A stretch of 64,000 nucleotides of DNA, from NCBI RefSeq assembly GCF_016938855.1, contig NZ_JAFHAP010000008.1, forward strand, positions 280 through 64,279, written 5' to 3'. Shown here piece by piece: positions 12,308-18,540 of this stretch. The notes beneath the pieces are model-generated. The model was given only the letters and a program-made list of their open reading frames with translations. It ran no database searches and was not told the DNA's origin. The DNA is from Polycladomyces zharkentensis. GTDB lineage: Bacteria > Bacillota > Bacilli > Thermoactinomycetales > JIR-001. The first letter of the stretch is position 1. Every line of letters begins with the position of its first letter. A program made the position numbers and the translations under genes.

Positions 12308-12664
12308 TTAAAAGTTTGGGTCTGAACTTGCATGATGAATCCAAGTGAAAGTTTCCTTCAAAAATTCCTTTACCCCTTCTGGACCTGTCAAGTGTAAACA
12401 AACAGGACGATTGGGTGCTACATGTAATTCGAAATTTAAAAATGGACAACATAAGCGTTCCAGTGAGATAAATTCAGCAATTTTTTTGATCATGGAGGAT
12501 TCTGCCGGATAACAAACCGCGTATCCGTCAGGAAGTTCATATATCTCCTGCCAATAATTTGATATATAATCCAGAAGTTGCTGATATTTTTCCCTTTGTT
12601 CTACGGTCATTGCTGAAGGTACACATGCGATCGGAATACGATCGTTCACATGATCCTCTTCCAT
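12308..12664 (-). CDS. small cysteine-pair protein, target of a divergent MerR regulator
   Basis: The 118-residue soluble protein starts at ATG 12662-12664 behind GGAGGG. The conserved-looking core is YELPDGYAVCYPAE, then AEFISLERLCCPFLNFEL with adjacent Cys72-Cys73, then LTGPEGVKEFL. Proteins with this LCCPF arrangement occur beside MerR-type regulators in other bacteria, to my recollection without an assigned function. A vicinal cysteine pair suggests thiol-metal binding. The divergent MerR gene and the 19-bp-spacer promoter indicate metal- or thiol-induced expression. It is more AT-rich than its neighbours, like the MerR gene, consistent with joint acquisition. Confidence 0.8.
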   Translation of the reverse strand: MEEDHVNDRIPIACVPSAMTVEQREKYQQLLDYISNYWQEIYELPDGYAVCYPAESSMIKKIAEFISLERLCCPFLNFELHVAPNRPVCLHLTGPEGVKEFLKETFTWIHHASSDPNF

Positions 12665-12698
12665 GGTAATCCCTCCTAAGTATGAGAAGTTATAATTG

Positions 12699-12729
12699 AG
12701 TATAATACTTAAAGTAAACTTTAAGTCAA
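12699..12729 (-). promoter_or_regulatory. MerR-type promoter with 19-bp spacer and dyad operator
   Basis: On the minus strand, -35 TTGACT (12724-12729) and -10 TATACT (12699-12704) are 19 bp apart. This is the over-long spacing that MerR-family activators correct by DNA distortion. The spacer holds a dyad with 9-bp arms, ACTTAAAGT and ACTTTAAGT, separated by two bases (12707-12726 on the plus strand). It drives the Cys-pair gene and overlaps the regulator's own upstream region. Confidence 0.85.
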
Positions 12730-12740
12730 AGGAGAAATAT

Positions 12741-13139
12741 ATGGGAGATCTTACGATTGGACAGATAGCAAGAAAAGCGAAAGTGAATACTTCTACCATT
12801 CGCTATTATGAATCAATTGGATTGCTTCCAAAGCCAAAAAGGGTGAATGGTCAGCGACGTTATTCTGGTGAAATCTTAAATCGGATTCGGTTTATTAAGA
12901 TCTGTCAACAAGCTGGATTTCGTGTTCGGGAAATCTACTCTTTATTAGAGGGATTTGAAGAGGTCTCTCCTTCTGAGCGATGGCGTACCATGGCAGCGAT
13001 CAAATGTGCAGAACTGAAGGAGAAAAAGAAACAAATCGATACAATGATTTGCATATTGGAAAAAGGATTAAAATGTCACTGTCTTACTTGGGCTGACTGT
13101 TTGATTTATGCAGAACCAGATAGAACAGGTGAGGAATAA
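12741..13139 (+). CDS. MerR-family metal-responsive regulator
   Basis: The 132-residue protein starts at ATG 12741 after AAAGGAG; the upstream frame runs through the operator. The N-terminal winged helix reads LTIGQIARKAKVNTSTIRYYESIGLL. Cys89 sits where divalent-metal sensors such as MerR and ZntR have their sensory cysteine at the start of the dimerisation helix. The C-terminal loop has Cys112, Cys114 and Cys120 (CHCLTWADC). That points to a soft divalent metal such as Hg, Cd, Zn or Pb rather than Cu(I), but the ion is not determined. It is divergent from its probable single target. Confidence 0.88.
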   Translation: MGDLTIGQIARKAKVNTSTIRYYESIGLLPKPKRVNGQRRYSGEILNRIRFIKICQQAGFRVREIYSLLEGFEEVSPSERWRTMAAIKCAELKEKKKQIDTMICILEKGLKCHCLTWADCLIYAEPDRTGEE

Positions 13140-13617: not shown

Positions 13618-13659
13618 AAAAAAGGTTCGTTCCCGAGTATGAAGGGAACGAACCTTTTT
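13618..13659. terminator. bidirectional terminator
   Basis: AAAAAAGGTTCGTTCCC (13618-13634) pairs with GGGAACGAACCTTTTT (13644-13659). It serves the PH-domain gene and the convergent DUF2621 gene. Confidence 0.92.
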
Positions 13660-15504: not shown

Positions 15505-15552
15505 GGTGAAGGTTGGGAGCAGCGTTCAGTCTGTTTGGACGAGGTGGTAAAC

Positions 15553-16095
15553 GTGAACCGAAAATGGATTAGGTATATCGGTTTGTGGTTGTGTATCTGG
15601 CTCGTGCCTTCATTGGCGGTGGCCCACACGCACCTGAAACAATCGACGCCGGGTGACGGGGAAACGGTGTCGCAACCAGTACAGAAGATCACGTTGGTGT
15701 TTGAGGAGCGCATCGAACAGGGAGGGTCGGTGGAACTTCATGACGGAGCCGGGCACACAGTGAAACCCGCTTCCGTGAAGGTTCAAGGGGATACGTTGGA
15801 AGCGACGCTGGGATCTGCCTTGCCGGCCGGCCATTACACCGCACAATGGAAAATCATCGGATTGGACGGTCATCCGATGCAAGGGTCGTTTCAGTTCGAG
15901 GTGAAGGCGGACCAAACATCAGCCGGTCAAAAACTGTCAAAGGCACCCAATCAACAGCCCGCGCCGCATCACAACCAACATTCCGCTCCGGCGAAAAAAT
16001 CCGCTTCATCTCCGGTGATTTGGGTGGTGGCCTTACTGGTACTCAGTGCCGCGGTGATAGCGGGCTGGCTGTTCCGGAGGAAGCCGAAAGCATGA
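15553..16095 (+). CDS. copC: CopC-domain copper-binding protein, membrane-anchored
   Basis: The 180-residue protein starts at GTG 15553 behind GAGGTGG. A signal peptide (to about residue 25) ends in VAHTHLK, so the mature protein begins with the His-x-His that CopC uses for Cu(II). The beta-sandwich carries YTAQWKIIGLDGHPMQGSFQFEV with a further histidine. A low-complexity His/Gln/Pro linker and a C-terminal membrane anchor (about 154-175) with a basic tail follow. The stop overlaps copD as ATGA. In Bacillus the two parts are fused in YcnJ; here they are separate. Confidence 0.93.
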   Translation: MNRKWIRYIGLWLCIWLVPSLAVAHTHLKQSTPGDGETVSQPVQKITLVFEERIEQGGSVELHDGAGHTVKPASVKVQGDTLEATLGSALPAGHYTAQWKIIGLDGHPMQGSFQFEVKADQTSAGQKLSKAPNQQPAPHHNQHSAPAKKSASSPVIWVVALLVLSAAVIAGWLFRRKPKA

Positions 16096-17334: not shown

Positions 17335-18540
17335 ATGAAAGAGAAAATACCGGTCACCGTATTGAGCGGCTATCTGGGATCGGGGAAAACGACGATTCTC
17401 AACCATGTTTTGCAAAATCGGCAAGGGCTCAGAGTGGCCGTGATTGTCAATGATATGAGCGAGATCAATGTGGATGCCGGACTGATCGACCGGAGCGGCG
17501 CATTGTCCCGGACGGAAGAGAAGTTGGTGGAGATGTCCAACGGGTGCATTTGCTGTACACTGCGGGAGGATTTGTTGCGGGAAGTGGAGCGGTTGGCCAG
17601 GCAGGGCCGGTTCGATTACATATTGATTGAGTCGTCAGGGATCAGCGAGCCGGTGCCGGTTGCCCAGACATTCACCTACTTGGATGAGGAACACGGTATT
17701 GATCTGTCGTCACTGTGCCGGCTGGACTGTATGGTGACCGTGGTGGATGCGTACCGTTTCTGGCATGATTTCGCTTCGGGCGAGACCTTGTTGGACCGTC
17801 AGCAGGCAGTAAGTGAAGAGGATACACGGGATGTGTCCGATTTGTTGATTGACCAGATTGAGTTTTGCGACGTCCTGATCCTCAACAAATGCGATCTGGT
17901 GGAGGAGGGGGAATTGCAACGGCTGGAGGCCGTTTTGCGCAAACTGCAACCGCAAGCCAAGCTGATCCGCACTTCTCACGGTCGTATCAACCCGTCGGAA
18001 ATCCTGAACACAGGCTTGTTTGACCTGGAGCGGGCCAGTCAGGCGGCCGGCTGGATTCAGGAATTGCAAAAAGACAGCCATACTCCCGAAACGGAGGAGT
18101 ACGGCATTTCTTCTTTCGTCTACCGGCGACGTCGGCCTTTTCATCCTGAACGGTTGGCCCGCTGGATGGAAGAGTGGCCGGAAACGGTCGTTCGCGCCAA
18201 AGGCATGATGTGGCTGGCCACGCGCCATGACACCGCCGTGCTGCTTTCGCAGGCGGGACCGTCCATTCAAGTGGGACCGATGGGCCATTGGATTGCCGCC
18301 CTGGAGGAAGAGGAGATGGAGAAGGTGTTGGCGGCCGAACCGGAGACGGCACGGCGGTGGCACCCCATTTGGGGAGATCGTGTCACGGAGTTGGTGCTGA
18401 TCGGGGTAGACATGGATCGGCAACAAGTGGAACGCGAGTTGGATGCATGTTTGTTGACCGATGAGGAAATGCTGTCCGATTGGTCCGCTTTTCCCGATCC
18501 GTTGCCGGGTGCGGCAGAGGGGAATGTATCTTTGGCCTGA
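17335..18540 (+). CDS. zagA: zinc-responsive COG0523 GTPase metallochaperone (ZagA/YciC-like)
   Basis: The 401-residue G3E GTPase has a P-loop GYLGSGKTT (residues 12-20), the metal-binding motif CICC at 71-74 (C-x-C-C), the ESSGISEP switch, and NKCD for guanine recognition. The C-terminal domain holds FVYRRRRPFHPERL, typical of the YciC group. ZagA delivers zinc to client enzymes under zinc starvation. Regulation by Zur is supported by the upstream box. GGGGGAGAG precedes the ATG. No alternative ribosomal-protein gene follows in the roughly 200 nt downstream. Confidence 0.93.
   Translation: MKEKIPVTVLSGYLGSGKTTILNHVLQNRQGLRVAVIVNDMSEINVDAGLIDRSGALSRTEEKLVEMSNGCICCTLREDLLREVERLARQGRFDYILIESSGISEPVPVAQTFTYLDEEHGIDLSSLCRLDCMVTVVDAYRFWHDFASGETLLDRQQAVSEEDTRDVSDLLIDQIEFCDVLILNKCDLVEEGELQRLEAVLRKLQPQAKLIRTSHGRINPSEILNTGLFDLERASQAAGWIQELQKDSHTPETEEYGISSFVYRRRRPFHPERLARWMEEWPETVVRAKGMMWLATRHDTAVLLSQAGPSIQVGPMGHWIAALEEEEMEKVLAAEPETARRWHPIWGDRVTELVLIGVDMDRQQVERELDACLLTDEEMLSDWSAFPDPLPGAAEGNVSLA

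Follow-up and report, generated by a model that had tools for sequence, protein, structure and literature searches.

ArsD, a small cytosolic protein encoded in ars clusters, has a vicinal cysteine pair plus a third cysteine and is regarded as a metallochaperone that delivers As(III) for export; As(III) and Sb(III) are usually bound by three thiolates, and ACR3 is an arsenite exporter. In mer systems (MerR with MerT/MerP) a MerR activator, a dyad promoter with a 19-bp spacer and cysteine-pair proteins come together, and SoxR is recognised by four cysteines (C-x2-C-x-C-x5-C) that bind a [2Fe-2S] cluster. The locus described here, in a 64-kb stretch of DNA that we call the window, has likenesses to each of these: P0001, as ArsD, is small, combines a vicinal pair with a third cysteine and occurs in ars clusters of other organisms; the pair shares with mer a MerR activator, the dyad promoter, a Cys-pair protein and, in some loci of relatives, a MerT-like partner; and the sensor motif closest to that of P0002 (CxC-x5-C, Trp81) is the one of SoxR. 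To our minds, the P0001-P0002 pair appears to be a conserved, apparently undescribed accessory of the MerR-controlled kind of metal(loid) resistance, and we see slightly better than even odds (about 0.55) that it responds to soft metal(loid) ions, most likely trivalent arsenic or antimony, with P0001 capturing the ion and handing it over.

Table 1. Features of the P0001-P0002 locus (window coordinates)
Feature	Position	Strand	Basis
P0001, 118-aa three-cysteine 'CC protein'	12308..12664	-	ORF, family alignment; unnamed conserved family
P0002, 132-aa predicted MerR-family activator (CxC-x5-C, Trp81)	12741..13139	+	ORF, family models
RBS of P0001, AGGAGGG	12671..12677	-	direct sequence reading
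RBS of merR, AGGAG, touching the divergent promoter's -35	12730..12734	+	direct sequence reading
-35 element TTGACT of the P0001 promoter	12724..12729	-	promoter scan
-10 element TATACT of the P0001 promoter, 19-bp spacer	12699..12704	-	promoter scan
Operator, perfect 9-2-9 dyad ACTTAAAGT-AA-ACTTTAAGT	12707..12726	.	promoter scan, conservation in relatives

The two divergent open reading frames, the 118-residue length of P0001, its Cys72-Cys73 and Cys89, Cys112, Cys114 and Cys120 of the regulator are all present as the original prediction had them; the genes (118 and 132 codons) lie 76 bp apart, and both have good ribosome-binding sites. Also borne out is the promoter with a 19-bp spacer and a perfect 9-2-9 dyad: TTGACT-19 bp-TATACT (minus strand, 12729 to 12699), with the dyad inside, is the sole site in the 64 kb, both strands included, that obeys a MerR-type promoter rule (-35 with at most one mismatch, spacer of 19 or 20 bp, -10 with at most two mismatches, dyad arm of at least 7). 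An operator with the consensus TTGACTTAAAGTnnnCTTTAAGTnnTATACT is found upstream of P0001 relatives, and the promoter-operator TTGACTTAAAGTnnnCTTTAAGTnn-TATACT precedes them or their operon in Bacilli, Chloroflexi and Acidobacteria, the copy in Thermoflavimicrobium being identical to that of the window across 31/31 bp. The operator is present at 28 of 39 relatives' loci with MerR nearby versus 2 of 39 without, and in none of 1560 dinucleotide-shuffled control regions. A search of 399 Bacilli genomes finds the motif in 19 of them and a reversed control motif in none; by coordinates it lies directly upstream of the CC gene (the gene for P0001 or a relative) in five (G000, which is the window's own, G035, G059, G201, G222), and since other genomes have the motif without a CC gene it is not exclusive to the CC-MerR module. 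Weaker operator-like sites (L112, L113, L114; 1-2 mismatches) exist elsewhere in the window's genome; on a brief inspection, one stands before a short-chain dehydrogenase (C16:2809) and one before a different MerR gene (C11:901), so the sites were left out of the P0002 regulon and probably belong to other MerR regulons.

A scan of genome contigs with the single P0001 sequence gave no match, and the family was reached only by an alignment-based scan, which placed relatives at 250 sites in 84,980 genomes; the 80 that we read come mostly from Acidobacteria, Chloroflexi and Paenibacillaceae. Plasmids add relatives from Bacilli, Bacteroidota, Rhodococcus and haloarchaea. Within 101 related genomes P0001 is found in seven, counting the window's own; in two the identity is 77%, and some copies are degraded. 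A match is present in 13 of 399 sampled Bacilli genomes, several of them broken, all of which describes a patchy and often decaying accessory gene. Across 91 aligned sequences Gly47, Glu69, Cys72, Cys73 and Phe75 are invariant, the ExxCCxF part in the genome set being partly so by construction since the search pattern that retrieved the relatives on genome contigs included ExxCC.F. The Cys72-Cys73 motif is, in addition, invariant in the plasmid relatives, archaeal ones included, which were found without that motif in the search, and the cysteines of the effector are in this sense conserved elsewhere, a point on which the earlier proposal could have foundered. Cys14, which lies outside the fetch pattern and had been overlooked at first, is kept in 88 of 88 relatives long enough to cover it, while Cys51 and Cys89 are not conserved across the family. 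Judged from sequence, Cys14 and Cys72-Cys73 may thus be regarded as a three-thiol set.

P0001 itself has every trait by which we recognise the CC family (Cys14, Glu43, Gly47, Glu69, Cys72-Cys73, Phe75, length of 100-120 aa). Pfam and NCBIfam returned nothing for it at E<=1 other than a chance match to an ATP-synthase model and nothing for 63 family members at E<=0.01, ArsD models included; nor did P0001 match phages, Rfam or PADLOC. Its confident AlphaFold2 model (pLDDT 86.5) is a helix-bb-helix-bb-helix arrangement that has no match in the PDB by Foldseek at E<=0.001 and, by VIA structural comparison, comes closest to the ArgR C-terminal domain (Z 7.4), followed by I-DmoI; as this Z lies within VIA's stated chance range, we assign no fold. 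The predicted arrangement distinguishes P0001 from ArsD, as do the position of the third cysteine ~58 residues upstream of the pair, the control of the CC gene by MerR rather than ArsR in many loci and its YnfA/BASS partners. Literature on MerR with YnfA, MerR with DoxX and arsenic-responsive MerR does not describe the module, and the sections of the TnARS1 paper (PMC6920998) that we consulted mention no CC-protein gene. P0001 belongs to a large, unnamed and apparently undescribed family of bacteria and salt-loving archaea. Some relatives (L067 5938-6315; L079 1392-1796; L092 5956-6300) begin with an apparent signal peptide, which suggests that exported versions exist. Haloarchaeal relatives of ~110 aa (L016 4950-5288; L017 4878-5210) are annotated as 'Zn-dependent oxidoreductase', a label that looks like a misannotation.

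What the family keeps company with was counted as genes within 2 kb of the 80 relatives: MerR at 39 loci, YnfA at 18, a MerT-like Cys-Cys membrane protein at 13, ArsR at 11, ArsM at 10, DoxX at 6 and BASS at 3; 26 loci have none of the searched metal-related genes in that distance, which counts against a metal(loid) reading. The search for CC proteins next to MerR genes in other genomes, as called for originally, thus finds them together in about half of the loci. The idea of an isolated two-gene circuit with a single target does not carry over to this broad family, whose units elsewhere include YnfA, a BASS/ACR3-type transporter, MerT-like proteins, DoxX and ars genes. One or a few examples of each kind of neighbour were compared with curated models: those of YnfA, ArsM and ArsR/SmtB pass the NCBIfam cut-offs, the BASS example is above the Pfam SBF cut-off with an ACR3 resemblance below cut-off, and MerT-like calls are based on the Cys-Cys helix and weak matches only. 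YnfA and BASS/ACR3 share 1 of the 80 loci, a rarity to be expected if each substitutes for the other.

The ars connection recurs in several lineages. Two Adhaeribacter plasmids have arsR-arsN2-arsM-phosphoesterase-ACR3 followed by the CC gene and YnfA; in several Chloroflexi the CC gene heads CC-ArsR-ArsM runs; in Cytobacillus it adjoins an ars cluster; and in Thermoflavimicrobium P0001 is intact and MerR frameshifted, and both lie together with YnfA and ArsR-ACR3-ArsC. On actinobacterial plasmids the CC domain is fused to the MerR C-terminus, and downstream of each of the 8 fusions that we read comes BASS (in six) or YnfA (in two); several of the fusions lie inside ars clusters, and ArsC, ACR3 or ArsM is often nearby. 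Haloarchaea have the CC gene with BASS or MerB-like genes, and other HTH regulators replace MerR.

P0002 is a MerR-family member by its N-terminal winged helix-turn-helix (PF13411, 64.7 bits, cut-off 21.6) and its 19-bp spacer with dyad, and lies below all curated equivalog cut-offs, those of the mercury MerR (77.5 bits against 150.85) and SoxR (70.2 bits against 116.9) models among them. It had been put down as a divalent-type MerR, an assignment that does not survive comparison. Regulators for mercury or divalent metals are marked by a score above the curated cut-off and a cysteine equivalent to Cys82 of Hg-MerR (position taken from PMC9478572), which opens the dimerisation helix; in alignment with Hg-MerR (5crl) Ser78 of P0002 stands in its place. 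Cys89 is a cysteine in 3 of 43 partner regulators and Cys104 is likewise not conserved; the conserved set is Cys112 (41/43), Cys114 (42/43) and Cys120 (34/43). These align with the last three of the four [2Fe-2S] cysteines of SoxR (2zhg), the first of which falls on Gly109, where Cys is not among the common residues in the 43 partners. With Ser78 at the Cys82 place and Gly109 at that of the first SoxR cysteine, P0002 is no typical divalent-metal MerR and no SoxR either, and can be viewed as a putative SoxR-like three-thiol sensor.

From the layout, the promoter, the conserved operator and cysteines, the association with MerR, exporter and ars genes and the MerR fusion, we infer an inducer, a metal binding and a hand-over that may run as follows. 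P0002, by analogy with known MerR biology, would be an activator that sits on the over-long 19-bp-spacer promoter of the divergent P0001 gene, captures a thiophilic ion, with trivalent arsenic or antimony as the likeliest candidates, through Cys112, Cys114 and Cys120 and, once loaded, distorts the DNA such that P0001 is switched on. P0001, as a small cytosolic protein, would bind the same ion via Cys14, Cys72 and Cys73, keep it off cellular thiols and deliver it either to a carrier for export (YnfA or one of the BASS/ACR3 type) or to further detoxifying enzymes. Arsenite-like ions are favoured because, of the specific neighbours, arsenic genes turn up most often and because three thiolates suit such ions; on our best reading P0001 would be a thiol chaperone or scavenger that responds to metalloids, with As(III)/Sb(III) as its probable ligand. 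Of the original suggestion of a metal-sequestering or thiol-stress system, a compact MerR-controlled system for a thiophilic metal(loid) is what stands, given the co-occurrence with MerR and the conserved cysteines.

Mercury is the main rival to arsenite-like ions as ligand, and arsenic falls short of proof since some loci adjoin mercury genes or carry MerT-like proteins. The same design may be envisaged with Hg(II) or an organomercurial as ligand and P0001 as a carrier of mercury in the cytosol, partnered by the MerT-like Cys-Cys membrane protein. The cysteine pair in the first membrane helix of that protein, one weak MerE match, merA/merR1 adjoining in Peribacillus, MerB-family genes beside the CC gene in haloarchaea and a cysteine near the Hg-MerR Cys82 position in the fused actinobacterial regulators all agree with such a carrier, yet merA is within 2 kb at none of the 80 loci, where ArsR and ArsM are found at 11 and 10, and P0002 has Ser78 and scores well below the mercury MerR cut-off. 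The window's unit also differs from mer in lacking MerA and in that P0001 has no match to a heavy-metal-associated domain. We give this mercury version about one chance in five, which makes it improbable yet the most serious competitor.

The fusions raise another option: since actinobacterial plasmids put the CC domain at the MerR C-terminus, the site of effector domains, P0001 could act alongside MerR as a MerD-like co-sensor or co-regulator, tuning induction rather than protecting the cell. Outside Actinobacteria the CC protein has a gene of its own, driven from the operator, it occurs in ars operons without an adjacent MerR (Chloroflexi, Adhaeribacter), and P0001 has no recognised DNA-binding domain, all of which make this role unlikely. 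Placed slightly lower is the notion that P0001 works on a metalloid or an electrophile as an enzyme with thiol chemistry (a reductase, transferase or lyase), Cys72-Cys73 and Glu69 being its catalytic residues; the invariance of Glu69, Cys72, Cys73 and Cys14 and enzymes such as ArsM among the neighbours would suit it, but at ~105 residues, with no cofactor motif seen and no enzyme fold found by Foldseek or VIA against the PDB, we regard it as quite improbable. Least probable is a SoxR-type redox or thiol-stress switch with an Fe-S cluster in P0002 and P0001 as thiol buffer: P0002 does align with SoxR to its last residue and keep 3/4 cluster cysteines, the best NCBIfam E-value in a set of 15 partner regulators is that of SoxR and the operator resembles a SoxR-type box, but the first cluster cysteine is missing and the neighbours are metal(loid) rather than redox genes.

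A resistance accessory for arsenite-like ions has to be reconciled with the window, where no exporter (YnfA or BASS/ACR3) adjoins the pair: ptsG, as part of glcT-ptsG, flanks it on one side and a PH-domain gene, followed by a DUF2621 gene and glycerate kinase, on the other. The recurrent partners are present at a distance on the same contig, as an arsR-acr3-arsC operon about 285-300 kb away (L159, G000:C8 ~297,400-299,300) and an orphan YnfA, the nearest one, ~300 kb off, at which no operator-like site was found; this distance and the absence of such a site at YnfA count against our preferred explanation. The window genome's arsR-acr3-arsC resembles the operon beside the Thermoflavimicrobium CC-MerR-YnfA island.

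As to origin, the pair is, as first noted, more AT-rich than its surroundings and in fact the AT-richest stretch of the window, with 38.0% GC against 53.9% for the whole and a GC3 of ~31% against 65-70% in flanking genes; among 1264 sliding windows of its length just two, both covering the pair, are as AT-rich. The proposed transfer holds as far as foreign composition goes but not as a recent event. The genome of a sister species (G001) has the same flanks and a deletion joining 12326 to 12918, and it retains the P0001 3' end and the last ~71 MerR codons, 82% identical. Since pieces of the two genes thus survive there at the very same site, the pair is older than the species split; recent horizontal transfer into the strain is not supported, and the composition fits an older acquisition. 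In another genome (G002) both genes are gone from this site and a broken copy lies elsewhere.

A bolder view, which we hold only tentatively and think rather doubtful, is that P0001 founds an undescribed and widespread family of metalloid carriers with three cysteines, which load exporters of the YnfA and BASS types under a new MerR subclass (CxC-x5-C, Ser78, Trp81) sensing trivalent arsenic or antimony. If true, YnfA would gain a natural substrate and arsenic a MerR-type sensor in addition to ArsR; a physiological role for YnfA, a transporter family of uncertain substrate, could follow. Either way, no model in the libraries searched covers, and no role has been assigned to, a conserved resistance-associated family found in Bacilli, Chloroflexi and Acidobacteria and reaching as far as haloarchaea; the conserved operator, the MerR fusion and the alternation of YnfA and BASS make inducer and function directly testable.

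Two further observations concern the surroundings of the pair. Downstream, ~2.4 kb from merR and of normal GC content, CopC (15535-16095), CopD (ends 17192) and a CobW-family GTPase with a GCICC motif (17335-18540) form a copper/zinc-handling group. Between convergent genes, a 41-bp perfect hairpin at 13619-13659 (GGTTCGTTCCC...GGGAACGAACC), which matches the sister-genome locus in both orientations, is probably a bidirectional terminator.
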